Below, in pieces: positions 34,270-54,677 of a DNA stretch of 64,000 nucleotides. Under the pieces are notes generated by a model that searched no databases, was not told where the DNA came from, and saw only the letters and a list, made by a program, of their open reading frames with translations. A program made the position numbers and the translations under genes. The DNA lies in NCBI RefSeq assembly GCF_007997225.1, contig NZ_VORM01000001.1:124001-188000 (forward strand), given 5' to 3'. This DNA is from Subsaximicrobium wynnwilliamsii (GTDB lineage: Bacteria; Bacteroidota; Bacteroidia; Flavobacteriales; Flavobacteriaceae). Numbering within the stretch: position 1 is the first letter of the stretch; each line of letters begins with the position of its first letter.

Positions 34270-34938
34270 CTACAGCAGTTTGTCCAGTTCTTTCTTCATT
34301 CCTCTATCTAAATCTTTAGAAAGGGACCCTTGATATGATTGTATTATACCATTCTTGTCTAAATAAATATTCAAAGGATAGCTTTTAGTATTCAATTTGT
34401 CCATTTCAATTTGAGCATCAATACTATGAGTGAAATGAAAAGTTCTATTTAACAAAAAATCCTCAACCTGTTTTTTCTTATCGAATGTTACAGCTAAAAA
34501 ATTTACTCTGTCTCCATAATGTTCTTTTAATTCATTTAAATGTGGTATTTCCTCAACACAAGGCGGACAATTTACAAACCAAAGATTAACTAGTGTAGGT
34601 TTTCCGTTTAATGATTCTATATTCAATGTATCTCCATCAATGTCCATTAAATTTTCAAAAGGTAGTTTTTTGCCTATAAAATTCTCCATTTCAGAATAAG
34701 GATTTACTTCTTTAACTGTTGTTTCAAATAGATTTATTATAGAATCATTTCTTTCAACAGTCGATAAGATTGCTTCATGTATTGCGCCTCGTTGAGACAA
34801 TTTTAGTTTAACTTCTTCATACTTTTCTGACGAAAATATTTTTCCATTTGGTGCCTGATAGAATATTTCCTTCTTCTGTTCAGTTTTACAAGACAATAAA
34901 GAAATTATAGACAAAGTAATTAGGATTGTTTTTATCAT
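34270..34938 (-). CDS. TlpA-like thioredoxin-fold lipoprotein
   Basis: Lipoprotein signal with lipobox SLLSC (Cys17), then about 90 residues of unassigned N-terminal domain, then a TlpA/AhpC-type thioredoxin fold. The redox motif CPPC occurs in NLWFVNCPPCVEEIPHLNEL, followed by NFLAVTFDKK and the cis-Pro loop region SYPLNIYLDKNGII. It probably oxidises, reduces or isomerises disulfides at the envelope. It pairs with the similar gene upstream (34989-35714), and both lie between the two copies of a 55-bp direct repeat. Base composition is more AT-rich than in the flanking GLPGLI genes, consistent with a later arrival. Confidence 0.85.
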   Translation of the reverse strand: MIKTILITLSIISLLSCKTEQKKEIFYQAPNGKIFSSEKYEEVKLKLSQRGAIHEAILSTVERNDSIINLFETTVKEVNPYSEMENFIGKKLPFENLMDIDGDTLNIESLNGKPTLVNLWFVNCPPCVEEIPHLNELKEHYGDRVNFLAVTFDKKKQVEDFLLNRTFHFTHSIDAQIEMDKLNTKSYPLNIYLDKNGIIQSYQGSLSKDLDRGMKKELDKLL

Positions 34939-40477: not shown

Positions 40478-42502
40478 ATGAAATTATACAACTCTAAATT
40501 TTATCATCGTGACCTGTCATGGCTTCGGTTCAACCACCGTGTCCTTCAGGAAGCTTCAGATAAGTTGAATCCGTTATATGAACGCATCAAATTCCTGGCG
40601 ATTTTCTCATCAAATCTCGACGAGTTTTTCAGGGTGCGCGTTTCAGACATTCGGCAAATAAGACAGGTTGAAAAGCCACTTCGGAAGAAACTCATAACCA
40701 AACCCAATAAAGTCTTACAGGAAATAAAAAAACAGGTCGATATCCAACAAACGGCCTTTGGAAAGGTGTTTAAGGAAGAGATCATTCCCGATCTTGAAAA
40801 GGAAAACATTTTCTTGATCGATTATCACGAATTCAGCGATTCCCAAAAAGCCATTGCCAACGATTATTTCGAGAAAACGCTGAAAGATTTGCTGGCCCTA
40901 GAAACCACCTATCACAAAAATCCAGATACCATTTTTGTTGAGAATGAAGCGTCCTACCTCTGCACCATGTCTGGCGAGACCTTACACTTGGTCAAAATTC
41001 CGGACAGTGAACCGCGTTTTTTCTCCTTTCCTTCGGAAGGTGGGAAACACTACATCAGCTTTATCGATGATATTTTAAAATACAACTTGGCGAAAATCCA
41101 TCCTGATGATGCCGTACGCTATTACGCCTTAAAGATTTCGCGAGATGCGGAATTGTACATCGAAGATGAGTTCTCGGGCGATCTCATGAAAAAAATCAAG
41201 GCTTCTCTCCCAAAACGCGACAAAGGCCAGCCCACCCGCGTGTTGATAGACGAGCGCATGCCAAAATCGTTTCAGGATATTTTAATGAAAGCCTTAGACG
41301 TTTATAATGCCGATTTGATTTTAGGCGGAAGGCACCACAATTTCAAGGACTTCTTTTCATTCCCAAATCCCACGGAAAATGAGAAACTCCATTTTGAACC
41401 CTTACCTCCCTTGCCACATCCCGTGCTATCAAAATCTAAAAACATATTTGACACCATTGAGGAAAAAGACCAATTGCTCAATTACCCCTATGAAGCTTTT
41501 GATCCTGTGATCACGCTTTTAGAGACCGCTGCCAGCGACCCAACCGTAACTGCCATCAAGATGACCTTGTATCGTCTCGCCAATGAGTCGCGATTGAATA
41601 CCGCCATTGCCAAAGCTGCAAAAAACGGAAAGGAAGTCATTTTATTTATCGAAGTAAAAGCCCGTTTTGATGAGCAAAACAACATCAAATGGGGTGCTAT
41701 TTTCAAAGAGAATGGTGCAAAAGTGATCTACAGTTATGCCGATATTAAAGTGCACTCAAAGATTCTCTACATAGAACGCTTGGTCAATGAGGAAATAAAA
41801 CGATACGCCTACATAAGCACAGGTAATTTCAACAGCAAAACTGCTGAACTCTATGCTGATTATGGTTTGATGACTGCCCATAAAAAAATAACCAAAGACC
41901 TCAACAAGGTATTTATGGTTTTGCAGGGCATCACGCTAATTCCCAAAACCAAATGCTTGCTGGTATCGCCATTTAGCACGAGACATACTTTGGAGCAGCT
42001 TGTAGATCAAGAAATGGAAAATGCCAGAGACGGAAAAGAGGCCTACATCATTTTAAAGATGAACAGCTTCCAAGACCATGCCTTGATCAAAAAACTCTAT
42101 GACGCCAACAATGTAGGCGTTAAAATCAAATTGATTGTGAGAGGGATGTGCAGCCTGGTAGCTGGCATTGAAAACCAGAGCGAGCATATTGAAGTCATTA
42201 GTATCCTCGACCGCTTTTTAGAGCACGGCCGGGTTTATATCTTCGGAAACGACGGTGACGAGATCATGTACATTGGTTCTGCCGATTGGATGACCCGAAA
42301 CCTGAAACACCGCATCGAAGTCTTGACTCCTATTTTGGATGCCGATATCCATAAAATGCTGCGCGAATTGGTGGATATCCAACTTAAGGATAACGTCAAG
42401 GCGAGAATCATTGACGCCGAACAAACCAATACTTACGTCAAGAATTCCAAACCCAAAGTGCGGGCGCAGTATGCGACTTATGCGTATTTTGAGGGGTTGT
42501 AG
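40478..42502 (+). CDS. ppk1: Polyphosphate kinase 1
   Basis: Reversible transfer of the ATP gamma-phosphate to polyphosphate. The N-terminal domain starts YHRDLSWLRFNHRVLQEA, followed by the head domain. The two phospholipase D-like catalytic domains show KVHSKILYIER (the autophosphorylated His region) and LEHGRVYIFGNDGDEIMYIGSADWMTRNL. At 674 residues it is slightly shorter than the E. coli enzyme but complete. The leader holds a GCCGGCAGGCAGG palindrome. It is the last core gene before the cassette array; its 3' end is 31 bp from the first attC-like site. Confidence 0.93.
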   Translation: MKLYNSKFYHRDLSWLRFNHRVLQEASDKLNPLYERIKFLAIFSSNLDEFFRVRVSDIRQIRQVEKPLRKKLITKPNKVLQEIKKQVDIQQTAFGKVFKEEIIPDLEKENIFLIDYHEFSDSQKAIANDYFEKTLKDLLALETTYHKNPDTIFVENEASYLCTMSGETLHLVKIPDSEPRFFSFPSEGGKHYISFIDDILKYNLAKIHPDDAVRYYALKISRDAELYIEDEFSGDLMKKIKASLPKRDKGQPTRVLIDERMPKSFQDILMKALDVYNADLILGGRHHNFKDFFSFPNPTENEKLHFEPLPPLPHPVLSKSKNIFDTIEEKDQLLNYPYEAFDPVITLLETAASDPTVTAIKMTLYRLANESRLNTAIAKAAKNGKEVILFIEVKARFDEQNNIKWGAIFKENGAKVIYSYADIKVHSKILYIERLVNEEIKRYAYISTGNFNSKTAELYADYGLMTAHKKITKDLNKVFMVLQGITLIPKTKCLLVSPFSTRHTLEQLVDQEMENARDGKEAYIILKMNSFQDHALIKKLYDANNVGVKIKLIVRGMCSLVAGIENQSEHIEVISILDRFLEHGRVYIFGNDGDEIMYIGSADWMTRNLKHRIEVLTPILDADIHKMLRELVDIQLKDNVKARIIDAEQTNTYVKNSKPKVRAQYATYAYFEGL

Positions 42503-42532: not shown

Positions 42533-42672
42533 GGGATAATGATGACGGTTATAATATGAAAAGTAGGCGATTAAGAAGCACGAAACTTTCGGTTAAACAC
42601 GAAGTTTGATACGAACCAAAAGCTTCAAATTTATTGCTATTTCGCCTATTTTTTATATACATTATTATCTGC
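42533..42672 (-). repeat. attC-like site A (left end of cassette array)
   Basis: Imperfect long palindrome: GGATAATGATG..TATAATATGAAAAGTAGGCGA on the left mirrors TCGCCTATTTTTTATATACATTATTATC on the right. The right edge, ATTATCTGC (42664-42672), is the complement of GCAGATAAC at 45882-45890, so these two cores bound one cassette. The stop codon of the serine hydrolase gene lies inside the site, as often seen in integron cassettes. Confidence 0.65.
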
Positions 42673-44115
42673 TGGCTTTTCTCCAGTCTTCAGTATGTAG
42701 TTCGGTATCATTTCGTTCGGTGGTGTACTTTTCCCATAAAGTGCATATGAATTGTAATTTCCGCCCGTAAACACGGTAATCATATCCAGTTCGGGCCAAA
42801 TATTGATTTTTTGTCCACCGTTACCCGAAGCTAAATACGAATTGTATTTTTGTCCGTCAATTACAAAATATTTATGTTCCCACAAATACCCGTAATCTCC
42901 TTCGTCCATATCAAATGTTTTGTTAATCCAACTTTCGGAAATTATTTGCTTGTCTTTCCATTTACCGCCATCTTTAAATAGCTTCGCCAACTTTATCAAG
43001 TCCCTTGGAGTAAGATACATTTGACTAAACGTTGTCATACTTGCCTGATTCGGTTCGAAAGTCCAATCATAATTCGAGACTCCCAATGGGTTAAATAGGT
43101 TTTCTTTTGCAAAATCTTCGATGTTTTTACTAGTTGCCATCTCAACCAAACTACCCAAAGTCAAAGCACAACCTGTACAATAGGATGATGATTTCCCAGA
43201 TTCTTTGACCATTGGTAAATCAAGAGTGTATTTTACCCAATCTTTGCTTGCCATCATTGCTTGCTCGTTTCCTTTGCTTTTAGGGTTATCATTTTCACAG
43301 TCCATACCGTGTCGGTACATTAAGAAATTTTCTATAGTAATTTCTTTTTTTCGGTCATCCAAATTTGCAATTTCCGAGTATGTTGAATTGAAATAAGGTA
43401 AGAGTTTATCTTTTTCACTTTTTATGAATCCTTGGTCAATGGCAATTCCAAGAATTCCGCCAATGAACGGTTTTGTGGCAGACCTTAATTGATGCGGTAT
43501 ATTTTCATCATAACCGTAGAAATATTCTTCAAGTACCAATTTGTTATTCTTGTAAATTAAGATGCTGTGCACATCAGGAAATTTTCCTTTTATGGTTTCT
43601 TTGACCATATCGATTATAGGTTCGGGATTTTTGAATTCATCTTCTAAACTGCCCGTTTCTAGTCCATCTTCGGTTTTTTTGGGTTTATGATAAACGTAGC
43701 TATCAGGATTATGAAATAATTCTTTTCTCGGGAACATTTCCGTTTTTTCAATTTCGGAAGTAATTAGTTTAAATTCTAGTCCATCAGTTCTGTACCCTTT
43801 AACTCGATTGGTTTTGTCTCGTTCAAAAACGACTGGAACATCCTGAATATTGGTAAAACTATCCAAGGCGATATGTTTTAAAGGGTATTTCGCGTTATCT
43901 ACGATTGCATAAAGTGTTGTGTCAAGTTCAGACGCTACAATGTCGAGTGTAGTTTTATCTACATATTCATATTCATAGTTTCCTTCATATTCCAAAAGTT
44001 TTTCATAATCCGATTTTTCTTTCGGTGATGAACATCCAAAAGCCAGTATTACGATCATCAATAGCAACGGGAATGTTTTTTTAAAATTATTTTTTCTGAT
44101 TGTTTGTATTTCCAT
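42646..44115 (-). CDS. Beta-lactamase-family serine hydrolase (lipoprotein)
   Basis: 489 residues. A lipoprotein signal (VILAFGCSS, Cys28) is followed by a beta domain at about 40-125 that resembles the C-terminal domain of the neighbouring 44.2-kb protein. The penicillin-binding/beta-lactamase fold then has the SxxK motif in LRSATKPFIGG (Ser212, Lys215), RHGMDC in the YxN area, and a SGNGGQKINIWPE C-terminal motif. It is probably an esterase or peptidase acting in the periplasm or at the surface, not necessarily a beta-lactamase. Its last nine codons fall inside attC-like site A. It shares cassette 6 with the HTH/DJ-1 gene, which lies 71 bp upstream. Confidence 0.8.
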   Translation of the reverse strand: MEIQTIRKNNFKKTFPLLLMIVILAFGCSSPKEKSDYEKLLEYEGNYEYEYVDKTTLDIVASELDTTLYAIVDNAKYPLKHIALDSFTNIQDVPVVFERDKTNRVKGYRTDGLEFKLITSEIEKTEMFPRKELFHNPDSYVYHKPKKTEDGLETGSLEDEFKNPEPIIDMVKETIKGKFPDVHSILIYKNNKLVLEEYFYGYDENIPHQLRSATKPFIGGILGIAIDQGFIKSEKDKLLPYFNSTYSEIANLDDRKKEITIENFLMYRHGMDCENDNPKSKGNEQAMMASKDWVKYTLDLPMVKESGKSSSYCTGCALTLGSLVEMATSKNIEDFAKENLFNPLGVSNYDWTFEPNQASMTTFSQMYLTPRDLIKLAKLFKDGGKWKDKQIISESWINKTFDMDEGDYGYLWEHKYFVIDGQKYNSYLASGNGGQKINIWPELDMITVFTGGNYNSYALYGKSTPPNEMIPNYILKTGEKPADNNVYKK

Positions 44116-44186
44116 AAATATATATTTATTAGACTAATAAAATTGTAGAATCAGCAGTTGCTATATCTCTTTAAAATTGTTAATCG

Positions 44187-45767
44187 CTAGTTTAATTTAG
44201 CATAAAATTTACTGTTTTTTTCTGCTGCTTTGAACCCTAAAATTTCATCATTAGAATTTCTCTCAAATATGATTTTCTCTTCATCAACATTTAGAAAAAT
44301 ATTATCTTTGATAAAGAATATAGGGTAGTTCCTTCCATTTACTTTTGCATAAAGGGACTGTTCATTACTATTTACTTTGAGTATTATATCTGTGTTATTT
44401 TGAAATTCATAAATTCCTACGTAATCATCAAATTTGCCATTACCAATGAAATTTTTATATGGATTATCATCAGATAAAATAAGGCCCTCACCCGGAATCC
44501 ATTTATCGTATTCCATATAATAAGCGACCTTTCTAGCAGCATTAAACCCTTTTAGTTTGGCCACTAAATGAAGTGCGCCATCTATGCCCGCAGAAATTCC
44601 CGCAGTAGTGATAACGTTACCATTGTCAACGAACCTAATATTTTTCAAAACAGTAGTCTCAGGGTACTTGTATTCAAATTCATCTAGCGCGTTATGAAAA
44701 GTTGTTGCGGTTTTCCCTTTTAGAATATCTGATTCCGCAAGTATAAATGCTCCAGTACAAACGGAAAAATAATATTTAGTACTATTTTGAGACTTTACCC
44801 AATTAATAACCTCAATATCCTTATATGCTTCTGAAGAATTTCCCCCAAAAAAGGCTAGTATATCAGCTGAAGGTGCATTTTTAATACTGTATTGCGGAAT
44901 AATTTTCATTATCCCTTGAGTTGTAATAGGGTGAGTTGTTTTAGAGACAATGAAAATTTCATAACCTGCATAAGCAAAAACTTCCATAGGTCCAGAAAAA
45001 TCTAAAACTTCAACGCCATCTTGTAGGTAAAATGCAATTTTATTAACCTCAAGTGTTTGTTTAGAAGTTAGAATAGAATCACTAAGATTATTACTTATAA
45101 TACCCTTGTAATATTTATTTTTATTTGTGAAGCTCACGCAAAGAATCATAATAGTCAGTATTGCGGTAATAGATAATAATTGAAATGGTTTTTTTAGATG
45201 CTTTTTTGTGTTAGTCTTTAAAAAAGGAAATGATAGTGGATAATAACATTTTTGAGCAGTTATAGCTTTAAAAAGATTATAAGATATTACCAAAATATTG
45301 AAAGGAACAACAGCAATAAAAAATAAAAAGCCCCATCCTTCAACAGTTACCAAAGAAATAAATGCAAGAATATATAATATGGTTACACTTAATTGAAAAT
45401 TAATTATTTTTATGCCGTGCTGATTATAAATAGGATTATCATCGCGTTTGTGCAGCCATATAAATAATGGGAATAAGACTGAAAAAGGGAAGATAAATCC
45501 CAACAGCGGAGAGCCGTGTAAGAATAATAACCATTTATTTTGTAAAGCTTCCTCTTTAGGATTCTCTAATATTATTAGGTCGTCCACTTCTATTTTTAAA
45601 GCATCTGCTAATAATTTTATGGTTTGAAGTTGTGGATTTACTTCGTCTTTTTCAATACGTTGTATTGTCCTTATTGCAACGTTTGATTTTTCAGATAATA
45701 TGTCTTGAGTATATCCCTTCAATTTTCTTTGATACGCTAACTTTTTTCCGATTGTTTGCTTTTCCAT
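44187..45767 (-). CDS. HTH-membrane-DJ-1/PfpI fusion protein
   Basis: Four parts in 526 residues: an XRE-type helix-turn-helix (about 8-62, LAYQRKLKGYTQDILSEKS), a membrane region of three to four helices (about 79-214, the first part DUF4870-like), a DJ-1/PfpI class I amidotransferase-like domain (about 242-420), and a C-terminal beta domain (about 445-524). The third domain has the nucleophile-elbow Cys337 in YFSVCTGAFILAESDILKG and resembles GlxA/AraC N-terminal domains. The fourth is similar to the N-terminal domain of the adjacent serine hydrolase. This suggests a membrane-bound regulator or sensor. Whether the DJ-1 domain is inside or outside depends on the helix count, which I cannot settle. 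Confidence 0.75.
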   Translation of the reverse strand: MEKQTIGKKLAYQRKLKGYTQDILSEKSNVAIRTIQRIEKDEVNPQLQTIKLLADALKIEVDDLIILENPKEEALQNKWLLFLHGSPLLGFIFPFSVLFPLFIWLHKRDDNPIYNQHGIKIINFQLSVTILYILAFISLVTVEGWGFLFFIAVVPFNILVISYNLFKAITAQKCYYPLSFPFLKTNTKKHLKKPFQLLSITAILTIMILCVSFTNKNKYYKGIISNNLSDSILTSKQTLEVNKIAFYLQDGVEVLDFSGPMEVFAYAGYEIFIVSKTTHPITTQGIMKIIPQYSIKNAPSADILAFFGGNSSEAYKDIEVINWVKSQNSTKYYFSVCTGAFILAESDILKGKTATTFHNALDEFEYKYPETTVLKNIRFVDNGNVITTAGISAGIDGALHLVAKLKGFNAARKVAYYMEYDKWIPGEGLILSDDNPYKNFIGNGKFDDYVGIYEFQNNTDIILKVNSNEQSLYAKVNGRNYPIFFIKDNIFLNVDEEKIIFERNSNDEILGFKAAEKNSKFYAKLN

Positions 45768-45881
45768 AAATTTTTATTTGGCACAAAGATACCAACATAC
45801 CTTCATTTTCTTTACGTCATATTGGTGTCATCTATCTGTCATTTCTTTGTTTTATAGGTTTTTGCTTGGTTTTTTTAGCTT

Positions 45882-46662
45882 GCAGATAACGCTCTTGAGA
45901 TCGAGTAGACAAGGGGAATTTCACCCCAAGCCTCTCACAGTCCCGATAGCTATCGGGATCATCACTACTACGAATGAGTCTGCCACTGCATACAGAATTG
46001 GTATTCTGCCTCTAGGTTGTGCCTATTGTACATTTCCCTTAACATTTGTATGCAGCTTCCCAAGTTCCGTAAATAAGCCCAAATAAAGTTCCCCGATAAA
46101 AATCGGGGCAGGCTTCGACATCTGAATGACGCCAGCCTTACAGAAAATAAATAGGTTATCTCTGTAATTAATGTTGTCGCTAACATTAATTTTTACTCGG
46201 CACAGCCACCCACGCCAACTGGCTCGTTTGCTAAAAATGTCCGCAGGACATTTTCTTTACGCTCCGCCCTGTAGCTTTTGACTGGAGGTAGCAACTTCTC
46301 GACACCTCACCAATGGTTCTCCGCCTCAGGCGGATCAACTCCCCTGCCTGCCTGCAGGCAGGTTTATTCATACCTGTTAATCTCTTGGACTAGATTCTCC
46401 TAAAAGCTCAGTACCAAGACTATTAATCAAAGCACCTTTAGGTGGTTTAGAGCCATCGCCTATACGACGACTCTGATGGACCTACCATCATCTTATCTAC
46501 AGCATGCAGCCAGTTTAATGCCGTGGCTGCTTCTTGGCACACTATGAAAAGTAGCGTGTAAATAAACAAGTACTTTTCCGCCTAAAATAACGTTATTAAA
46601 TAAACAATGCAAATAGTATTTGGCACGGATTTAGCTATTTTTTATATACATTGTTGGCAGTA
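45882..46662 (-). repeat. attC-like site B, interrupted by intron copy 1
   Basis: The left core GCAGATAACG (45882-45891) and the right core GTTGGCAGTA (46653-46662) belong to different cassettes. The former matches site A across cassette 6; the latter matches site C across cassette 5. Removing the intron at 45900-46542 leaves a palindromic element of about 138 nt, with TATGAAAAGTAGCG on one side and TAGCTATTTTTTATATACA on the other, the same inner motifs as in sites A and F. Confidence 0.65.
45900..46542 (-). mobile_element. ORF-less group II intron copy 1 (domain V lost)
   Basis: On the minus strand it begins GTGTGCCAAGAAG (GUGYG 5' end) and contains the domain I landmark ACTCATTCGTAGTAGTGATGA. 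It ends with a domain VI-like stem GGCTTGGGGTGAAATTCCCC and the 3' terminus TTGTCTACTCGAT (AY end). No reverse transcriptase is encoded. Compared with copy 2, the segment between two CCCGATAGCTATCGGG palindromes, including domain V, is missing. The copy therefore cannot splice and is a relic. It is inserted after CATA in attC-like site B. Confidence 0.7.
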
Positions 46663-46676
46663 GTTTTTTATTTTTG
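46651..46676 (+). promoter_or_regulatory. Possible promoter of the toxin-antitoxin-chaperone operon
   Basis: TATTTTTG (46669-46676) fits TAnnTTTG and would start a transcript about 10 nt before the toxin ATG. A TTG lies 15 bases upstream, slightly closer than usual. The genes run opposite to the other cassettes, so an own promoter is expected. Confidence 0.3.
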
Positions 46677-46692
46677 TTCCAAATACTAATAA

Positions 46693-47268
46693 ATGTTGTT
46701 ACAATTTAATGGGTTTCACGGTACAAGTGTAAGCGCAGCAAAACAAATAGTAAGTTCAAACTATGAAACGTCAATAGGTGATGATGAATGGTTGGGAAAT
46801 GGTGTTTATTTTTTTGTAAGTGGAATAAGTTCAAAACCAGAAGAACAAGCTAAAAAATGGGCAATTGCTGAAGCTTGGGATAAAGATAAACAAGTATATA
46901 AATATAAAAACTATTGTGTTATTAATTCAGTTATTGAAGTAGAAGAAGACAACTTTATAGATTTAACTAAAGAAGAAGGTGTTGAAATACTAACATACCT
47001 TGCTGAATGTTTTGAAAAGAAATTAAATAAAATTAGTAAAAGGTTTAAGGCAGTAGATGGTTTACTTATTAACTTAGCAAGAGAAGAAGGTATTTTGCCA
47101 ATTGATGTTGTTAAAGGGAATTTTTATATTAAATTTGCAAAAGAAAGAATTAAAAGGATTACTTTAAGGACTTCTAATTGTACAATATGTACAGTATATG
47201 AACCAACTAAAAATATTACCAATTCTAACATAATAGAAATAGGGGATATAAAAGATGAAACTAAATAA
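46693..47268 (+). CDS. PARP-like ADP-ribosyltransferase toxin of a toxin-antitoxin-chaperone system (CmdT-like)
   Basis: 191 residues. The start LQFNGFHGTSVSAAKQIV (His9-Gly10-Thr11) and WLGNGVYFF (Tyr39) match the first two parts of the H-Y-E signature of PARP-type ADP-ribosyltransferases, which bind NAD. A catalytic Glu is likely near CTVYEPT (Glu170), though this is less certain. It overlaps the next small gene by 14 bp, and a SecB-like chaperone gene follows: the toxin-antitoxin-chaperone order. In E. coli CmdTAC, an ADP-ribosyltransferase of this arrangement modifies mRNA during phage infection; whether this one does is inferred. Its AT-rich composition and cassette position indicate transfer. 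Confidence 0.75.
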   Translation: MLLQFNGFHGTSVSAAKQIVSSNYETSIGDDEWLGNGVYFFVSGISSKPEEQAKKWAIAEAWDKDKQVYKYKNYCVINSVIEVEEDNFIDLTKEEGVEILTYLAECFEKKLNKISKRFKAVDGLLINLAREEGILPIDVVKGNFYIKFAKERIKRITLRTSNCTICTVYEPTKNITNSNIIEIGDIKDETK

Positions 47269-47479
47269 AGAAATAAAGAATCGAATAGACCAATACTTTG
47301 AAAATATAAGTTCAGAAGAACTTTATTTTAAAGCAATTGGTAAATATGGTTTTAATGAAGATATAGATTTTGAAATCGACAATCAATTTTTTGATAATGC
47401 CGGACAAAATTTTTATTGTCCAAATTCAGATAATAGCTTAGACGCTAATGATATGGAATCTTTACTGTTAGCTGCTTAA
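47255..47479 (+). CDS. Small antitoxin of the toxin-antitoxin-chaperone system (CmdA-like)
   Basis: 74 residues, acidic (many Asp/Glu/Asn), starting MKLNKEIKNRIDQYFENISS and ending MESLLLAA. Its place between an ADP-ribosyltransferase and a SecB-like gene, overlapping the first by 14 bp and separated from the second by one base, marks it as the antitoxin. In known TAC systems the antitoxin carries a C-terminal chaperone-addiction segment that makes it unstable unless the SecB-like partner binds. The hydrophobic LLLAA end is a candidate for such a segment. No DNA-binding motif was recognised. Confidence 0.65.
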   Translation: MKLNKEIKNRIDQYFENISSEELYFKAIGKYGFNEDIDFEIDNQFFDNAGQNFYCPNSDNSLDANDMESLLLAA

Positions 47480-47480
47480 T

Positions 47481-47876
47481 ATGAAAATTCAATTAGATAA
47501 TTGGAAAGTTATAAACGTTAACTTTTCGTCCTTAAAAGATGAGCCAAGAGAAGATAATTCTTTTGACTTATCAACGGGTCACTTTTTTCCAAAAGAAATT
47601 GACAAATCATTTGGTGTTGGATTTGAAATCGAAATAAAGGATAAGTTTTTTGATTTATTCGTTGAAGCGATTTTTATGTTCAAACTTGATGAAGATATAA
47701 CGGAAGAGTTTAAGCTTTCTAATTTTCCAAAAATAAATGCACCAGCAATTGCTTTTCCTTTCTTGAGGGCTTATGTGTCAAATTTAACTCTTCAGTCAGG
47801 TTTTGATCCTGTAATTCTACCTTCTATAAATTTCGTTCAGTTCGCAAAAGATAAGCAAGAATCTGAGGCTGAGTAA
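47481..47876 (+). CDS. SecB-like chaperone of the toxin-antitoxin-chaperone system (CmdC-like)
   Basis: 131 residues with the SecB fold pattern: N-terminal strands (NWKVINVNFSSLKDEP, FGVGFEIEIKDKFFDLFVEAIFMFKL), then the hallmark INAPAIAFPFLRAYVSNLTLQSGFDPVILPSINF. This last matches the export chaperone's AP..FPY.R...S....G..P..L.P.NF segment. It ends in an acidic tail (KQESEAE). General SecB is not otherwise expected next to a toxin, so this is the dedicated chaperone that would stabilise the small antitoxin. It is the last gene of the cassette; the attC-like site C begins 7 bp after the stop. Confidence 0.8.
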   Translation: MKIQLDNWKVINVNFSSLKDEPREDNSFDLSTGHFFPKEIDKSFGVGFEIEIKDKFFDLFVEAIFMFKLDEDITEEFKLSNFPKINAPAIAFPFLRAYVSNLTLQSGFDPVILPSINFVQFAKDKQESEAE

Positions 47877-47882
47877 GCAAAT

Positions 47883-48857
47883 TACTGCCAACGGTTTTGT
47901 GATCGAGTAGACAAGGGGAGTTTTACCCCAAGTCTCTCACAGTCCCGATAGCTATCGGGACGTGCTTGAAAGTCTCCCCTCACACGGCTCTTCTAATTTA
48001 ATTTACAAATATAAGCTCATCCTTTTGCAAGTTGGCAAACCGTAAATATAATTAGCCCATCCCTTCGCTCCACTTCCATTACAGTCCCGATAGCTATCGG
48101 GATCATCACTACTACGAATGAGTCTGCCACTGCATACAGCATTGGTATTCTGCCTTTAGGTTGTGCCTATTGTACATTTCCCTTAACATTTGTATGCAGC
48201 TTCCCAAGTTCCGTAAATAAGCCCAAATAAAGTTCCCCGATAAAAATCGGGGCAGGCTTCGACATCTGAATGACGCCAGCCTTACAGAAAATAAATAGGT
48301 TATCTCTGTAATTAATGTTGTCGCTAACATTAATTTTTACTCGGCACAGCCACCCACGCCAACTGGCGCGTTTGCTAAAAATGTCCGCAGGACATTTTCT
48401 TTACGCTCCGCCCTGTAGCTTTTGACTGGAGGTAGCAACTTCTCTGCCTGCACCGCTTTTTGGCGGGGACACCTCATCAATGGTTCACTTTTGCCTGCCT
48501 GCCGGCATAGCCAGCCTCAACTCCCCTGCCTGCCGGCAGGCAGGTTTACTAATACCTGCCAACCTCATGGATTGGATTCTCCCAAACGCGCAATACCCCC
48601 GAGGCTTCGGGGCTCTTTACAATAGCACCTTTGGTTGGTTTAGAGCCATCGCCTATACAACGTCCCTGATGGATCTACCATCATCTTATCTAAAGCATGC
48701 AGCCAGTTTATTGCCCTGACTACTTCTTGGCACACTATGGTTAGTTGCGTGGTTGAGCAACTAAATTAGTAGATAAATAGGGGCTAGAGAAAATTTCAGT
48801 GGAATTTTCCAGATGAGCAATGACCAAAGCAATTATTTATACACCGTATTGGCATTT
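47883..48857 (-). repeat. attC-like site C, interrupted by intron copy 2
   Basis: The left core TACTGCCAAC (47883-47892) is the complement of GTTGGCAGTA at 46653-46662, bounding the toxin-antitoxin-chaperone cassette. The right edge ATTGGCATTT (48848-48857) is the complement of AATGCCAAC in site D, bounding the amidohydrolase cassette. Without the intron (47902-48735) the site is about 141 nt and carries the inner pair TATGGTTAGTTGCG and AATTATTTATACACCG. Confidence 0.65.
47902..48735 (-). mobile_element. ORF-less group II intron copy 2
   Basis: The minus strand starts GTGTGCCAAGAAGTAG, passes through the domain I landmark ACTCATTCGTAGTAGTGATGA, and reaches a domain V-like segment GAGCCGTGTG-N-AAGCACG. 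A domain VI-like stem CTTGGGGTAAAACTCCCC and the 3' end TTGTCTACTCGAT follow. No reverse transcriptase is present. The 3' strand of domain V is broken where TCCCGATAGCTATCGGGAC stands in place of the expected GTTC. Palindromes CCTGCCTGCCGGCAGGCAGG and CCCCGAGGCTTCGGGG also sit inside domain I. It is nearly identical to copy 1 over its central part. Confidence 0.7.
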
Positions 48858-48929
48858 CGTTATCATGCATAAACGAGATGGTATTCCCAATGTTTTTCTA
48901 AATAATCAAAATAAAAACTCCAAGAAAAT

Positions 48930-50378
48930 TTATTCAATCCAATAACCTTCGAGCATCACCTTATAGATGGTTCGCGAATTTTTTACGTCATCTAATGGGT
49001 TTTTATCCAGCATCAGGAAATTGGCAATTTTGCCTTCGTTGATACTTCCGATTTTATTCTCCAATTTTAAAAATCTAGCAGGAGCAATAGTTGCTGAGCG
49101 AAGAACTTCTGCATTAGACATGCCCGCTTCTGACATAAATTGTAATTCCTTGTGTGCACTATATCCGGGAATGATTGAGGGGTTTCTCGCATCTGACCCC
49201 ATGAGCACGTTGACACCTGCCTTATACATTGCCGTAAAGTTTTTAATGTTATTCTCTTTATGCAAATCCAGATCAATACCGTAACTACTAACCATCATTT
49301 GTCTTACGGGCCAGTTTTCAAGGCTGCGATTAGTTCTCTCAGAACTGTATTGCATCATAAAAGGATCCTCTAAAATTTCAGCAGAGCCAACATATTGAAA
49401 GATATACGCTACAGAAAGTGTAGGTGTGTAAAAGATAGAATCTCTGATCATTTTTTCTAAGAAAGGCTCAGCACCCGTTAGTAACTCATCTTCTACGGTA
49501 TGAACAATAACATCTACGCCCGCATTCACAGCATCTTGCAAGTCGGCTATACGGGTTACATGGGCAAAAACGGGTAGATTGTATTGTGATGCTTTCTGGA
49601 CGATTTTCCCTGTCAATTTATTTGATAATCGGGGTTCTTCTGAAGCACCACCTAAGCCAGATTCCACCATGACTTTTACGCCGTTGAGGCCAAGCTTTTT
49701 CTTTTTAGAAAATATAGCGTCTAAATCAGTTTCATCTGTAATAGTAAATATGCCTTGTTCATCAAGATCTATTTCATCTTCTGATAAGCCTGTCATACCA
49801 GATACAAATGGAATGGGATAACCACCTGGTGCCGTTAGTATACTTCCAGTTGCTAAAATCATTGGGGCTACAATTTTGTGCTTCCGTTGTTTTTCTTTCA
49901 GTTCTGTGGTGGTTTCCTCATTAAATCCGTGGCCTCCTAAAGTAAAAATTGTACTCACACCGTATCTTGCAAATTGCTCTAATGCCATTGGCCGAGTAGA
50001 TTCGTCTGGCGGTAACAGCCCACCGCTATTCAAGTGGGTGTGCATATCGATCATTCCGGGCATGAGGTAACGATTTTTTGCATCTACAATTTCATACTTC
50101 GTTTTTAGGCTATCAGTAACTTGACCTTCAAAAATTAGCTTGAAAACACCGTCCTGTATGATTAGATTTTTATTTTTAAGGACTATACCAGCTTCAACAT
50201 CAATAATATTTGCGTTGGTTATCAAATAACTATTGCCTTTCTCAGGGCTATAAACTTCCGAAGCTTGAAGTTTGAGGATGTGTTCTTCTGTATTATGGAA
50301 CCAAAAGAAATAACTCGTTAAACCAATTAGTAAGAGGATACCTACTGCAATGCCAATAAACTTTAAGACTTTTTTCAT
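48930..50378 (-). CDS. Membrane-anchored amidohydrolase family protein
   Basis: 482 residues. An N-terminal anchor (about 5-26, LKFIGIAVGILLLIGLTSYFFW) is followed by a short stalk and then an imidazolonepropionase-like amidohydrolase. Metal-site motifs are visible: MIDMHTHLNSG, GVKVMVESG, VFAHVTR, DVIVHTVED and LMGSDARNP. A C-terminal TIAPARFLKLENKIGSINEGKIANFLMLDKNPL follows, as is usual in this superfamily. It is probably a metal-dependent hydrolase of a cyclic amide or dipeptide in the periplasm; the substrate is unknown. It occupies cassette 4 (cores at 48848-48857 and 50576-50584), with the attC-like site directly after its 3' end, and is complete. Confidence 0.82.
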   Translation of the reverse strand: MKKVLKFIGIAVGILLLIGLTSYFFWFHNTEEHILKLQASEVYSPEKGNSYLITNANIIDVEAGIVLKNKNLIIQDGVFKLIFEGQVTDSLKTKYEIVDAKNRYLMPGMIDMHTHLNSGGLLPPDESTRPMALEQFARYGVSTIFTLGGHGFNEETTTELKEKQRKHKIVAPMILATGSILTAPGGYPIPFVSGMTGLSEDEIDLDEQGIFTITDETDLDAIFSKKKKLGLNGVKVMVESGLGGASEEPRLSNKLTGKIVQKASQYNLPVFAHVTRIADLQDAVNAGVDVIVHTVEDELLTGAEPFLEKMIRDSIFYTPTLSVAYIFQYVGSAEILEDPFMMQYSSERTNRSLENWPVRQMMVSSYGIDLDLHKENNIKNFTAMYKAGVNVLMGSDARNPSIIPGYSAHKELQFMSEAGMSNAEVLRSATIAPARFLKLENKIGSINEGKIANFLMLDKNPLDDVKNSRTIYKVMLEGYWIE

Positions 50379-50575
50379 ATTTTTTTTGCTCTTTATTTCA
50401 AGTGGGTTATCACTTTTGTTATTTAATTGAATAAACTTTTTTCAATTTCAATTGATGAGTAATTCCAAAATTTGCCAACTACAGTATTCAGGTCGATCTT
50501 ATCCTTTTCAATTCAGCTGTTAGTACAGAAAATTTACTAAAATTCTGATATTTTCATTGAACCCGTTCTTCAATG

Positions 50576-50674
50576 AATGCCAACGGGCCTTGAGTATGAT
50601 TAGCGGCATGGCTAAGCAACGAATTTAGCAAAAATAGAACCAAGCAATTAATCATACACGGCTTTGTTACCTGC
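50576..50674 (-). repeat. attC-like site D
   Basis: 99 nt. AATGCCAACGGGCCTTGAGTATGATTA on the left mirrors TAATCATACACGGCTTTGTTACC on the right: GCCTTGAGTATGATTA against GCCGTGTATGATTA when reversed. The left core matches site C across the amidohydrolase cassette; the right core GTTACCTGC matches AGGTAAC in site E. The neighbouring gene's stop codon lies 6 bp beyond the right edge. Confidence 0.7.
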
Positions 50675-50680
50675 GTTTTT

Positions 50681-51361
50681 TTAAGAATCCTTTTTAAACA
50701 CGATTAGCTTTAATGCTTTCTCCGAATCTTCTAAAATCCAAATTTTATAATGCTTCCATTCTATAGTTAGTGCCTTCTCTTCATGCTTATTTAGTGACAT
50801 AAACGACACGGTTTTCTGCTTATCTTCTTCTGATAATGAAATAGTATATGAATTAAAGGCGTCTGTCTGATTTCCATTTATATCCTCTGACCTTTCTCCA
50901 ACACAATCTTCAAACAGAATTTCAAGCTTACCAATAACTGCTGTTTGCCCTAAATCAATAAACATTGTTTTTCCAAAGTCTAATTTTTCAACAACTAACG
51001 CAACTTCCTCTTTATCAATTTTTAAATCAAAAGAGTAGTTTTGATATGCTTTAGGATAGTTTGCTTTTTCACTATCACTAGACGCATCATAACACCAGAG
51101 AAAAGTAGTGTATTTAGTGTTGTTTTCAAATACATTCAATTCTAGTTGAATATGTGGGGAGTCCTTGTTTATTGGTTTTGATTGAATGAATAGATTCGCA
51201 GGTTCTATAACTAATTTCTCAAATAGAGAACTAGGGTTTTTCCCAGTTTTTAGAGGTATTATAATAGAACTATTTATCATATTATGTTCTGATTGTGCAT
51301 ATCCTGTAAATTGAATAAATACAAGTAGTAGAATCGATATATTAGTTTCAAAAACCTTCAT
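50681..51361 (-). CDS. Secreted protein of unknown function
   Basis: 226 residues from the ATG at 51361 (signal peptide MKVFETNISILLLVFIQFTGYAQ). Twelve more codons are open upstream, but they would weaken the signal peptide and overlap the membrane-protein gene before it. The mature part is mostly beta (IIIPLKTGKNPSSLFEKLVIE, then HIQLELNVFENNTKYTTFLW), with a mid-chain EDCVGERSEDINGNQ loop holding a single Cys. No family was recognised. It lies in cassette 3 behind the small membrane protein, with its stop 6 bp before attC-like site D. It is AT-rich like the other cassette genes. Confidence 0.65.
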   Translation of the reverse strand: MKVFETNISILLLVFIQFTGYAQSEHNMINSSIIIPLKTGKNPSSLFEKLVIEPANLFIQSKPINKDSPHIQLELNVFENNTKYTTFLWCYDASSDSEKANYPKAYQNYSFDLKIDKEEVALVVEKLDFGKTMFIDLGQTAVIGKLEILFEDCVGERSEDINGNQTDAFNSYTISLSEEDKQKTVSFMSLNKHEEKALTIEWKHYKIWILEDSEKALKLIVFKKDS

Positions 51362-51380
51362 TATTCGGTATGATTTATCT

Positions 51381-51752
51381 TTAAAAAAGTCTGTCAAATT
51401 TAAATGCTAACATATAATAAAGCATTCCTGTTGTAGCCAATAAATGATTTCCAAATCCAATGAAATTTATGACTTTTACATAGGTTTTATTATGAAAACC
51501 TATAATAGCGTAGAAAGCGAATATCAAAATACAAGCTTCCAGACATATTACTAATAATTCTCTTAATTCAAAGTTATGTTGTTTTAAATTCGGGCTAGTG
51601 ATCGCCCAAAAAACAAATATACCTATCACAATAACGGTATTTAAATAAGAAATTATTAAAGTTGTTTTTTGCATTTTATACCCGATGGCAATGGCTGCTA
51701 AATGGCTTATCAGGATAATGGTTATTGCTGTGCTTACGCATATATCATTCAT
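51381..51752 (-). CDS. Small four-helix membrane protein of unknown function
   Basis: 123 residues with four predicted transmembrane helices (about 7-25, 31-51, 65-86, 92-115), separated by short loops. Basic residues (KMQK, HNK) suggest loop placement. No motif or family was recognised. It is first in cassette 3, its stop 19 bp before the start of the secreted protein gene, so the two are probably cotranscribed. The start ATG at 51752 lies about 40 bp from the attC-like site E core. It could be an immunity or anchoring partner of the secreted protein, but nothing in the sequence proves that. Confidence 0.6.
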   Translation of the reverse strand: MNDICVSTAITIILISHLAAIAIGYKMQKTTLIISYLNTVIVIGIFVFWAITSPNLKQHNFELRELLVICLEACILIFAFYAIIGFHNKTYVKVINFIGFGNHLLATTGMLYYMLAFKFDRLF

Positions 51753-51790
51753 AACTATGTTGCGGCATTTTCATTTTTTGTTACGGTTGT

Positions 51791-51923
51791 AGGTAACGTC
51801 TTATGTATTGAACCGTTGCGTGTCTAAAGGCACTAATTTAGCAAATAATGATAAACTAGGGAATCTGCCAGGATTTCCGTAGGCAGCTTTGCTTTACCAA
51901 TTAATCATACACGATGTTAGCAA
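51791..51923 (-). repeat. attC-like site E
   Basis: About 133 nt. AGGTAACGTCTTATGTATTG on the left mirrors ATCATACACGATGTTAGC on the right. An inner CTGCC..GGCAG stem and an AGCAAA..TTTGCT pair are in between. The left core matches GTTACCT of site D across cassette 3; the right core GTTAGCAAA (51915-51923) matches TTTGCTAAC of site F across cassette 2. Confidence 0.7.
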
Positions 51924-51926
51924 ACG

Positions 51927-52520
51927 TTATTCTGTTTTTACATCCGGTAATTTAATTTCTTCAACTTTCTTTATCAATTCTTCTTTCAGTTTTTTTATTT
52001 CACTCAGAAATTTTATTTTTTCTTTATCATTCGATATATAATTCCTGTAAGAGTAGGAATATAAGACTAAATAATTTCCAGATTCATTATTTTGATTTTG
52101 ATAACGATAAATATTCCATTCGTAGACACTTTTACCGTCACTCAAAACAAAATCAAGGATTATTTCATTGTTTTCTTTATTTTCAAATTTTTCATAATTC
52201 ACAACTGGATTTCTTTTTTTTCTATTTTCTAATTCATTAATTTTTCCAGCTACTACATTTTTTGCGGGTATATTCCCTTTTACAGCTTCGACCATTATCA
52301 TTTTTTCGTGTCTAGGCAGTTTGTCATCTTTCCTTAAGTATTCTTGTTTGTAATATTCATTTGATGGATGAGAACTCCATTTCAATTCGAAATTTTCTCC
52401 GTTAAATTCAATTTTATTCCCTACTGATAAATATTCAGTTGGTTCAGATTGAGCTTTTGTAGTTGAAATAAATAATAAACTTAAAAATCCTATTGTAAAC
52501 AATCTATAGATGCTTTTCAT
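51927..52520 (-). CDS. Secreted protein of unknown function
   Basis: 197 residues with a signal peptide (MKSIYRLFTIGFLSLLFISTTKAQ). The mature chain has beta segments (KIEFNGENFELKWSSHPSNE, IILDFVLSDGKSVYEWNIYRY), a Tyr-rich stretch (NYLVLYSYSYRNYI) and a C-terminal Lys/Glu-rich helix (about 165-192) that could form a coiled coil. No family was recognised. It is the only gene of cassette 2; its stop codon lies 4 bp from the core of site E, and its ATG 24 bp from the core of site F. AT-rich codon use matches the other cassette genes. Confidence 0.65.
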   Translation of the reverse strand: MKSIYRLFTIGFLSLLFISTTKAQSEPTEYLSVGNKIEFNGENFELKWSSHPSNEYYKQEYLRKDDKLPRHEKMIMVEAVKGNIPAKNVVAGKINELENRKKRNPVVNYEKFENKENNEIILDFVLSDGKSVYEWNIYRYQNQNNESGNYLVLYSYSYRNYISNDKEKIKFLSEIKKLKEELIKKVEEIKLPDVKTE

Positions 52521-52543
52521 TCTTTGCGTTTCGTTTTTTTATA

Positions 52544-52739
52544 TTTGCTAACGTTTAGTGTATGAAACGTAGCGTTTAAAAATACGCTGACTTTTCGATT
52601 TAGCAAAAGCCAAAACTTTTGCATTTTGTTTTAATTTTTCACTCTAAAAGCTAAATCAAAAGATTTGGCGACTTTGTAAATAGACACGAACCTTTGGAAA
52701 AGCCTGAATTAGCTATGTTTTATACACGCTGTTGTGCTT
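52544..52739 (-). repeat. attC-like site F
   Basis: 196 nt, the longest site. TTTGCTAACGTTTAGTGTATGAAACGTAGC on the left mirrors GCTATGTTTTATACACGCTGTTG on the right (GTGTATgAAACgTAGC against GTGTATaAAACaTAGC). An AGCAAAAG..CTAAATCAAAAG inner region is present. Cores TTTGCTAAC (52544-52552) and GTTGTGCTT (52731-52739) match neighbours E and G. It is intact and shows the empty intron target CATA|CACTAAACG. Confidence 0.75.
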
Positions 52740-52757
52740 TCGTTATTTTTTTCCGCT

Positions 52758-53444
52758 TTATTTTTCTACAATTATTTTATCAATTTCGGTTGTGGCTAAC
52801 TTTAACTGGTTTAGATACCATTCCATTTGCACATAATGATGATATAAGTCATCAAGAAATTCAGTCAACTGTTCAGGTTTCATTTCTCGGAAATGTCCAG
52901 TTCTTCTCTCGTAACTATATTTTTTACTTAAAAAAGCCCACCTTTCGTCCAAAATTTGACCGTTATCAATTAATCTATCATATGTTGAATTATATAATTT
53001 AATAATCTTTTGTATTAATTTTTTATTTCTAAAAACAGTAATTTGATTTCCTGAAACCGCTGATTCATAAGAGCCAGATATCGGATAGAATGTGCGTTGA
53101 CTTTTAAAATAATGATGAAAAATGACATCTAATGATTTTCTGTCATTATTATATAAATTCGGTAAGTCACTATTTAAGGCATTATAAGCTTCTATTCTTG
53201 GTTCTATAATTTCTACTATCAGTTGAATAAAAGCTTTATCTTGTTTGAGGTCATTTTTTACGCTAGTAATGAATTCCTTTTCTGATTTAGATTGTTTTCT
53301 GGTTTCGTTCCAATTATTAATGCTTAATGCAATTAAAATTCCAATAACAACAAGAATAATCTCACCAATTGCGTATTTCAGATACTTTCCAGTTTTTCCT
53401 TCTGAAAGTAAATTTTGACGAATTTTTCTATAAAATTTTATCAT
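52758..53444 (-). CDS. DUF6090-type membrane-anchored protein
   Basis: 228 residues that begin MIKFYRKIRQNLLSEGKTGK, then YAIGEIILVVIGILIALSINNWNE. This is the hallmark N-terminus of a large flavobacterial family of unknown function with one transmembrane helix (about 26-45). A helical C-terminal domain follows, with GSYESAVSGNQ in the middle and a tyrosine-rich YHHYVQMEWYLNQ near the end. It is complete and is the sole gene of cassette 1, with its stop 19 bp from the edge of site F and its start 23 bp from the core of site G. Such proteins are frequent in variable regions of flavobacterial genomes. Confidence 0.75.
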   Translation of the reverse strand: MIKFYRKIRQNLLSEGKTGKYLKYAIGEIILVVIGILIALSINNWNETRKQSKSEKEFITSVKNDLKQDKAFIQLIVEIIEPRIEAYNALNSDLPNLYNNDRKSLDVIFHHYFKSQRTFYPISGSYESAVSGNQITVFRNKKLIQKIIKLYNSTYDRLIDNGQILDERWAFLSKKYSYERRTGHFREMKPEQLTEFLDDLYHHYVQMEWYLNQLKLATTEIDKIIVEK

Positions 53445-53459
53445 TGGTTATTGGTTGGT

Positions 53460-53499
53460 CATAATGAAGCACAACAACTTATATAAGCACTAAATATAC
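53460..53499 (-). repeat. attC-like half site G (right end of array)
   Basis: AAGCACAAC (53467-53475) is the complement of GTTGTGCTT at 52731-52739 and closes cassette 1. It is followed by AACTTATATAAGCAC, an inner arm like those of the other sites. The far half is not recognisable before the App1-type gene, so this may be where the array joins the core chromosome. Confidence 0.5.
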
Positions 53500-53601: not shown

Positions 53602-54606
53602 CTATTTTATAAACCCCTGCTCCCGAGCATGCGCAATGGCCTGTTTACTGCTCTCTACCATTAAAAACGCAGTTGTTTTATAATTTTCAACAAGGCCTTT
53701 TACCCGCAACATGCGCTTTTTATGTTTGACGCTTCTCAAGTAAATGGCTAAAATACGGTCTGGGAATTCTTCAGCGATCTCCATGTAAATATCGGGATCA
53801 TGCTCGCCACTGTCCCCAATCAAAATGAAAGGCAATTTGGGATAGGTCTTTAGTAGATCTAGAATTTCCTTTTGCTTTTGGGGTTTCTCGCCCTCGGGTT
53901 TTTTCCGAAGAAAATTACTGAGACTTCGAAGCAAAATCGGGCCTTTCGGGAAATTGTTCTGCTTGAGAAACACTTCCAAATAACGGTACAGATTCCAAGG
54001 GCTGTGGCTCACATAAAAAATGGGATTCGCATTTTCGCCCGAAACACCTTGATGCAATTGCTGGTAGAAATCTGCAGCACCTTCTAAAGGCGTTCTGTTT
54101 TTGGCATTTTTAAAGATGGAATTATAGATGACCCGCCATTTGAGCAAAGACACAATACCTGTTTGTAAAATGGTGTCATCAATATCGCTGGCCACTCCAA
54201 ATTGTGCAGTATCGGCAGGAATCAACAGCTCGCCAGGAAAGCGATTTTCGTTTTGAATGCTGCGCTTGATATTCACATCGTCGTAAGACAATTCATAGGC
54301 CAACCAACCTTGCTCGTTTGTTAGCGCTTCCAATGCTTTGAGATTGGCTTCTACTCTAAAATACCCATCGGCATCTGTGGTTGTTTTCAGGATTTTTCCG
54401 TTGGGCAGTTTGATGTTCACGCCCACATTTCTGATTTCGTCGGTCTTAAAGCGCTTCCAGGTATTGACTGCCAAATGCCATATTTTCTGGGATTCCAGGT
54501 CTATGGATTCGTCTTCCAAGGTTCTTCCGCGCGCAAAAAAATGAGAATCGGTTCCGTAGCTCTGAAAACTAATAATCTGTAAAGGATCCTTTTTGAACCA
54601 GCCCAT
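53602..54606 (-). CDS. App1-family phosphatase (DUF2183)
   Basis: 334 residues from the ATG at 54606 (a TTG two codons upstream is less likely). The N-terminal half is a beta-rich domain (GVNIKLPNGKILKTTTDADGYFRVEANL). The C-terminal half is an HAD-like phosphatase related to yeast App1 phosphatidate phosphatase, with the DxDxT nucleophile motif ASDIDDTILQTG, FYVSHSPWNLYRYL and the late FILIGDSGEHDPDIY. It probably hydrolyses a phospholipid or related phosphomonoester in the cytoplasm. It borders the right end of the cassette array and lies 72 bp from the SRAP gene upstream on the same strand. Confidence 0.85.
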   Translation of the reverse strand: MGWFKKDPLQIISFQSYGTDSHFFARGRTLEDESIDLESQKIWHLAVNTWKRFKTDEIRNVGVNIKLPNGKILKTTTDADGYFRVEANLKALEALTNEQGWLAYELSYDDVNIKRSIQNENRFPGELLIPADTAQFGVASDIDDTILQTGIVSLLKWRVIYNSIFKNAKNRTPLEGAADFYQQLHQGVSGENANPIFYVSHSPWNLYRYLEVFLKQNNFPKGPILLRSLSNFLRKKPEGEKPQKQKEILDLLKTYPKLPFILIGDSGEHDPDIYMEIAEEFPDRILAIYLRSVKHKKRMLRVKGLVENYKTTAFLMVESSKQAIAHAREQGFIK

Positions 54607-54677
54607 AAGCAATGCATGTCGTTATATTAGATTTTAAATTTAACCAAAATAAATCACTTCACGGTTGAGCCCAGCGC

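Follow-up and report, generated by a model that had tools for sequence, protein, structure and literature searches.

The cassette array between ppk1 and APP1

The window analysed here is a stretch of 64,000 nucleotides (nt), C45:124001-188000, from the flavobacterium Subsaximicrobium wynnwilliamsii, and our subject is the DNA between ppk1 (40478-42502, plus strand; the name is from the initial reading of the sequence) and an APP1-type gene (53602-54612, minus strand; PF09949). Six consecutive gene cassettes, all read on the minus strand, are bounded by these two genes, each cassette having a site that resembles the attC recombination sites of integrons. The first-pass annotation had proposed such an array; the coordinates have been checked and all six of its core pairs are present on the minus strand. 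The anatomy of the region is that of an apparently integron-like way of working, and we consider it very likely an integrase-less satellite array (CALIN, a cluster of attC sites lacking integron integrases) of an integron system native to the Bacteroidia. The term applies to two or more attC-type sites with no integrase nearby, which is the arrangement found; no match to the IntI model TIGR02249 is listed on the contig, C45. By "attC" we mean here the sites of the present system, not classical ones.

Every one of the six cassettes has the TT of its G|TT core as its first bases and closes with an inverse core complementary to its own start, two of the inverse cores (cassettes 4 and 6) terminating in AAT, not AAC. 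Sites were located with a covariance model, A1, built from 40 hand-picked sites of 130-137 nt from the same genome, only one of which (cassette 2) comes from the window; long sites near 200 nt, a 97-nt site and unparsed sites were excluded from it. With filters off the model finds all six array sites, with E from 1.2e-17 to 0.003, the cassette 1 site in part only.

In the reading direction of the array the first junction is the G of G|TTGTGCTT at 53475 (minus strand), where cassette 1 is joined; no integrase is present there. Cassette 1 (52552-53474, minus; core pair GTTGTGCTT / AAGCACAAC) carries a DUF6090 gene (52758-53444; PF19578) and a site of the long form, about 195 nt (52544-52739, minus), for which the model gives a partial match (52545-52671, 22 bits). 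Cassette 2 (51797-52551, minus; GTTAGCAAA / TTTGCTAAC) has one gene (51927-52520) without a Pfam family at E<=0.01, the threshold used throughout the array, and a site at approximately 51791-51924 (minus, 79.8 bits; the member of the training set). Cassette 3 (50584-51796, minus; GTTACCT / AGGTAAC) holds two genes, 51381-51752 and 50681-51397, likewise without a Pfam family, and a short-form site (50576-50672, minus, 28.6 bits). An amidohydrolase gene (48930-50378; PF01979) occupies cassette 4 (47892-50583, minus; GTTGGCATT / AATGCCAAT), the site of which (47884-48856, minus, 52.1 bits) is split by a group II intron, as is that of cassette 5 (45882-46661, minus, 51.4 bits). Cassette 5 itself (45890-47891; GTTGGCAGT / ACTGCCAAC) carries plus strand genes at 46693-47268, without a Pfam family, and 47481-47876, SecB-like (PF02556). 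Cassette 6 (42546-45889, minus; GTTATCTGC / GCAGATAAT) encodes a protein with helix-turn-helix, DUF4870 and DJ-1/PfpI domains (44187-45767) and one of the beta-lactamase fold (42646-44115; PF00144). Its site, the last of the array (42533-42672, minus, 75.2 bits; outside the training set), has the right-hand core G|TCATC and so terminates in G|TC instead of G|TT.

The genes of cassette 5 (46693-47876) oppose the direction of the array and by eye resemble a toxin-antitoxin operon; such operons are common in integron arrays. The model also finds a solitary site outside the array (34141-34271, minus, 60.2 bits), directly 3' of a gene (34270-34938) that appears thioredoxin-like by eye and lies far from the array. 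An Rfam search of the array at E<=1 gave the introns, two doubtful matches and no attC family, although whether the library contains such a family was unchecked.

Sites across the genome and the cassette as a unit

A strict site pattern has 36 matches in the genome against four in a reversed control, most of them on contigs shorter than 15 kb. The first-pass annotation had recommended a covariance search, and A1 indeed adds more than 100 sites: 109 matches at E<=0.01 in 19 loci (160,482 bases). We analysed 103 of these, leaving out two weak reverse-strand duplicates, two matches truncated at an end and two split by introns. Apart from those duplicates of strong matches every locus, 19 of 19, has its sites in a single orientation, and the median spacing of the 103 parsed sites is 702 bases. 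Cores begin GTTR in 100 of 100 parsed sites. The earlier suggestion that they fit GTTRNC better than the classical GTTRRRY is right about the latter (5/100), but GTTRNC itself holds in just 40/100.

The end of an integron cassette complements its own start because both formed one site in the circle. Over the genome and 13 loci of relatives (135 of 142 sites parsed), the start and end cores of a cassette agree at six of six bases in 71 of 103 consecutive pairs, and at four or more in 80, whereas the two halves of one site agree so fully in 3 of 103 cases and random pairings in 68 of 5400. This extends well beyond the window the earlier observation that cores match within cassettes and differ between them. 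In the S. wynnwilliamsii genome alone the figures are 54/79 for cassette ends and 7/77 within one site. Since 19 of the 79 cassettes agree at only two bases, one multiplied cassette having such ends, the rule is strong yet has exceptions. A cassette of about 450 bases (TTGTAAAAAATGGCGG...) recurs at least in arrays L066, L067, L071, L082, L083 and L084 of this genome; only two bases of its start core match its end core.

Predicted hairpin structure and strand asymmetry

RNAalifold applied to the 40 training sites gives 17 base pairs, seven of them with two-sided change. At two positions a left-arm A stands opposite a right-arm C, in 40/40 and 39/40 sites. The same columns in 102 sites from 13 loci of relatives have A in 102 and C in 101, then A in 97 and C in 96, and the flanking pairs vary there among TA, CG, AT and GC. 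The columns are unpaired in the covariance model, therefore their conservation is not produced by fit to it. An A.C opposition on the top strand is a T.G wobble on the bottom strand; two fixed oppositions therefore let the bottom strand fold better, as in attC hairpins. With DNA parameters the bottom strand is the more stable in 36 of 40 sites, by a mean of 2.4 kcal/mol compared to -0.04 for 300 random pieces of the arrays. The attC-like site is thus predicted to be a strand-specific hairpin. In classical attC the strand asymmetry comes from bulged bases; no conserved bulged base occurs in the stem of the present sites. A passage in PMC7923331 states that in classical integrons the bottom strand of attC is the only one recombined.

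Group II introns in two sites

The imperfect palindromes reported earlier between the cassettes are indeed sites. Those of cassettes 4 and 5, however, are more than simple palindromes, each being interrupted by a group II intron without an open reading frame, which had been missed. The two introns are the large GC-rich repeats of the window. The first (47902-48735, minus, 834 nt) enters the L' arm at CATA|CAC, with a match to RF01999 (48554-48682, 73.2 bits, 1.5e-13) and one to RF00029 (47902-47992) that at 30.4 bits is under the gathering cut-off of 40. The second (45900-46542, minus, 643 nt) enters at CATA|CTC, the identical point of the L' arm, and matches RF01999 at 46372-46489 (99.5 bits, 5.5e-20); an Rfam match to domain V is absent from it. 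Compared by eye with other copies it seems to have undergone a deletion between two CCCGATAGCTATCGGG repeats. The longest stop-to-stop frames are 97 codons in the first and 77 in the second, and no group II intron reverse transcriptase was matched in the genome (TIGR04416, E<=1e-10).

A DNA search finds six copies of the intron in the genome, all entering the L' arm of a site at one point. The 5' exon ends in ACGYWACNNNYCATA in six of six; five 3' ends continue CAC, CTC or TAC and then the GTT core, the 3' end of the sixth having failed the pattern. The introns would be later passengers that target the L' arm. Group IIC-attC introns and, according to parts of PMC7923331, the IIB introns of halophile integrons are likewise group II introns in or beside attC-type sites, and the IIB intron UHB.I2 described there reads with the cassettes, as do the present ones. 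IIC-attC introns belong to class C and are inserted on the bottom strand at TTGT/T in R"; the introns considered here differ in running in the top-strand direction, in entering at CATA|YWC in the L' arm, in their RF01999 type and in having no open reading frame, and they do not belong to that group.

A recombinase and an attI-like element at the head of an array

The best IntI-type match in the genome is a tyrosine recombinase gene at C121:168902-170083 (L083:8903-10084). About 20 bases past it stands ATATAACTA|GTTGTACA, where an array starts. Its first cassette, which ends TTGTACAAC, is succeeded by a site and then by a second cassette with the end GTGTACAAC; the series runs on until the contig stops, all of it co-directional with the recombinase gene. 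Matches at E<=1e-60 occur in 47 of 97 genomes, this one included. In all 14 loci (its own and 13 in relatives) where the sequence continues for over 800 bases past the 3' end of the gene, sites are present there on the strand of the gene; two reverse matches near 21 bits duplicate strong ones. Seven of 21 loci (own and 20 relatives) end within 630 bases of the gene, assembly breaks that the arrays may explain.

In the family, 36 named loci, drawn from 80 fetched, gave 51 site matches in 14, and 49 of these lie on the plus strand 3' of a plus strand integrase, in 13 loci; 22 loci have no site match. Carriers with sites include Zunongwangia mangrovi, Algibacter onchidii, Winogradskyella ursingii, Seonamhaeicola aphaedonensis, Algoriphagus ornithinivorans, two Flavobacterium species and a Rufibacter. 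At L250:83-1692, unlike the other named loci, two minus strand sites stand upstream of a plus strand integrase, which is the classical divergent layout.

The attI-like motif ATATARCNNGTT is found no more than 180 bases from the stop codon in 25 of the 26 loci of clade A, that of S. wynnwilliamsii among them; of 5000 windows taken at random from integrase-bearing loci, 57 contain it. Judged by eye, the broader consensus reads TATATTWRTNNNNATATAACNA|GTT, and in the branches of lower identity a similar element can be seen about 100 bases past the gene. The exact 9-base inverse core lies 0.4-1.2 kb downstream in 11 of the 25, many stretches being too short to show one. An integron has a site-specific recombinase that heads an array and an adjacent primary site, and both are found here.

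In L101, L107 and L109 the integrase frames start about 85 residues late and are without the N-terminal domain described below, yet the attI-like element follows. The divergent neighbour of the S. wynnwilliamsii integrase (L083:8080-8778, minus) has a Peptidase_S24 domain, and a relative of it adjoins the integrase of G003; this LexA-type regulator could couple the integrase to DNA damage. A 3-dehydroquinate synthase gene adjoins the integrase upstream in L088, L089, L092 and L095 (one Pfam-tested, three similar), and another common gene does so in L093, L094, L098 and L102. The integrase occupies a few recurrent chromosomal seats.

Distribution

In a sample of 295 genomes of the class, 147 have a member of the integrase family (E<=1e-70) and 121 have sites (E<=1e-4). 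The two occur together in 90, integrase only in 57, sites only in 31 and neither in 117, an association with a Fisher p of 1.4e-12, uncorrected for kinship. The site counts are floors, because the model was derived from a single genome and scoring was limited to 11 candidates per genome (34 in the set of relatives). In that set of 97 genomes a hand count gives sites in 46 of the 47 with an integrase at E<=1e-60. Weighing against a strict link, 21 of the 50 without such a match also have sites; the causes may lie in draft assemblies, in loss of the integrase and in the threshold. In G002 sites are listed over approximately 174 kb, a span of which the continuity was unchecked. Of 395 genomes from the phylum as a whole, 105 have a true IntI above the cut-off; among the genomes with a match, one is listed in the same class and none as nearer kin.

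Proposed movement of cassettes and the origin of the ppk1-APP1 array

The proposed mechanism is that two folded bottom-strand hairpins are recombined by the recombinase, which thereby releases the cassette as a circle, and that the circle is then inserted at attI, about TATATTWRTNNNNATATAACNA|GTT, or occasionally at a secondary G|TN site, AAGTTG|TCATC between ppk1 and APP1 being an example. Among the cassette matches listed, two bear on such movement. One is a cassette of G005, found both at attI and within the array (L127; 408 aligned bases with 93.6% identity), and the match starts exactly at GTT with unlike sequences to the left. An 866-base cassette at the attI of G022 recurs inside the array of A. 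onchidii with 90.4% identity; the two copies differ in their core pairs, GTTGTAAGT/ACTTACAAC as against GTTGTGGTT/AACCACAAC, start and end having changed together. The integrases of these two organisms belong to the higher- and the lower-identity branch. Breakpoints at G|TT, as anticipated in the earlier annotation, are therefore seen at the left end of a cassette that occupies different places.

That annotation had also called for comparison of the ppk1-APP1 interval between strains. APP1 was found in 20 of 37 genomes, S. wynnwilliamsii included, and 20 loci in relatives were compared. In G006, G003 and G018 convergent ppk1 and APP1 matches are 18, 64 and 2 bases apart, an empty locus at the level of genes though not compared base by base. 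The other 17 have no ppk1 match in the flank of up to 1500 bases and are therefore uninformative either way. No attC-like site was detected in any of the 20 at E<=0.1. When the window flanks are joined they read AAGTTG|TCATCATT, which fits insertion at a secondary site. Secondary-site (attG) insertions by IntI are known, as noted in a section of PMC12444791 citing Loot et al. 2024.

The alternative that the array reached this position as a block, by homologous recombination or rearrangement and not through the recombinase, is doubtful but has to be taken seriously. The last junction is G|TC and not G|TT, and two sites contain introns, therefore the array is probably old; both points favour it. 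Against it, the joined flanks form one continuous G|TC target, as expected of recombination between attC and a secondary site, and by eye no mobile element is present at the ends of the array.

Identity of the recombinase

In NCBIfam the S. wynnwilliamsii recombinase scores 221.9 bits with NF040815 (cut-off 220), 212 with TIGR02249 (cut-off 265), 184 with XerC and 182 with XerD; for four further members of the family the values are 214-217 with NF040815, just under the cut-off, and 197-211 with TIGR02249. It lacks the IntI-specific domain of about 42 residues near patch III, and positions 192-238 of TIGR02249 are unmatched. The first arginine motif and HxLRH are 90-93 residues apart in nearly all loci of the family (96 in one) as opposed to 133 in the five IntI that could be measured, therefore residues are missing rather than diverged. 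The C-terminus carries the SPLD motif seen in many IntI. Among PDB entries the sequence ranks XerA first (158 bits), then a second archaeal Xer (147) and IntI4 (123), and comparison by structure gives the same ranking with a predicted model of which the pTM, the predicted template modelling score, is just 0.51. The best solved structures are 5hxy and 4a8e. XerA and NF040815, "site-specific tyrosine recombinase/integron integrase", are thus the closest known proteins, from which the present recombinase differs in heading cassette arrays and in having an extra N-terminal domain of about 75 residues. Seven of 26 such domains match HARP (PF07443) at E<=5, the best, at 6.3e-5, being weak; the S. 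wynnwilliamsii protein has no such match at that threshold. For a model of this domain Foldseek ranks 4o66 second, and 4o66 is absent from the 50 rows of VIA-align. The HARP domain of SMARCAL1 (PF07443; PDB code 4o66) and the N-terminal domain of XPB are among the nearest known systems.

In a tree of 74 recombinases the 17 IntI form a clade (100/100) that excludes the present family. Of the 39 Bacteroidota rows, 30 group together in a clade of their own (99/98); the remainder, including L223 and L235 with sites behind them, are unresolved beside it. The approximately unbiased (AU) test does not reject a single clade of IntI with all 39 rows (p 0.67) or with the 30 (p 0.74); the constrained trees exceeded the quick tree by 8 and 11 log units, and a later, more careful tree, 15 above it, was not used in the test. 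An origin independent of IntI, our first reading of the quick tree, received no support from the AU test and is now one possibility, a sister relation to IntI being the other. Treating integrases of 40% identity or less as an unrelated family was dropped, sites being found behind several.

The three features tested (domain, cut-off and clade) place the recombinase outside IntI. That it is nevertheless an ordinary IntI of a classical integron, with the extra domain diverged beyond recognition, is improbable, and as regards the domain largely refuted. Its best stretch with TIGR02249 (122.4 bits within the 212, where the genome's next recombinase reaches 76.6), the SPLD motif and the AU test speak in favour; set against them are a total below the cut-off with a block of the model unmatched, a spacing that implies missing residues and an IntI clade from which the family is absent. 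Even less likely is that the cassettes are real but moved by some other recombinase, XerC/D or phage-type, with the adjacent gene a passenger: the genome does have at least five further tyrosine recombinase loci, but the present family heads arrays in many species and diverged branches, and in clade A a conserved attI-like element adjoins it. Ordinary dispersed repeats (repetitive extragenic palindrome-like, or small transposon ends) gathering between genes without site-specific capture might account for the solitary site and for sites in genomes with no detected integrase, but are refuted, as the evidence stands, by agreement between cassette ends and not inside one site, by one-directional arrays (19/19 loci) starting at an attI-like element beside an integrase, and by a cassette that occupies more than one place and has G|TT as its left breakpoint.

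We therefore return to an integron of the Bacteroidia with an integrase that is not IntI as the explanation in which, with recombination inferred from sequence, we place high confidence. The possibility of a divergent lineage, raised in the first-pass annotation, is borne out by a recombinase without the IntI-specific insert and outside the IntI clade; the search it proposed for a recombinase of that clade did find a relative of IntI at the head of one array, though not a member of the clade. We favour, with moderate confidence, a Bacteroidia lineage of integrons with a HARP-fused, XerA-like recombinase in which the IntI-specific domain either never existed or was lost. Two steps in this are less supported, that the recombinase would work without that domain and that the HARP-like N-terminal domain would take over the recognition of hairpin or fork DNA.

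Relation to known integrons and implications

Classical integrons, with IntI, attI and attC cassettes, as in the sedentary chromosomal type, share with the present system an integrase, attI, G|TT-bounded cassettes with a matching inverse core, a hairpin of R and L arms with an asymmetric spacer, one-directional arrays and integrase-less CALINs. The differences concern the integrase, in which a HARP-like domain stands at the N-terminus and the IntI-specific one is missing, which falls outside the IntI clade and which is encoded in the direction of the array; the cores, which rarely fit GTTRRRY; and the strand asymmetry, which arises from two fixed oppositions, A.C on the top strand and T.G on the bottom, in a stem that has no conserved bulge.

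The IntI domain is treated as the distinguishing mark of integron integrases in the relevant parts of PMC9024848, PMC2426708 and PMC9668308. For the Bacteroidetes, a passage of the first mentions one complete integron, in Salinibacter ruber M1, and earlier lone integrases only. Titles and the starts of abstracts, preprints not included, disclosed no integron of Flavobacteriia or Bacteroidia with a non-IntI integrase, which is not proof of absence. The system is widespread in its bacterial class and was seemingly overlooked because the recombinase is without the part of the protein that marks integron recombinases.

If this is correct, a very common class of bacteria possesses large, overlooked gene-capture arrays, the need for the IntI domain becomes testable, and the finding bears on the origins of integrons. 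If the HARP-fused lineage is real, recombination of folded single-strand attC would not need the IntI-specific domain and would use instead a structure-recognising domain of the HARP/XPB type, with the choice of strand made by fixed G.T wobbles and not by bulged bases. The lineage would then be IntI's sister, or else the integron would have been invented a second time, independently.

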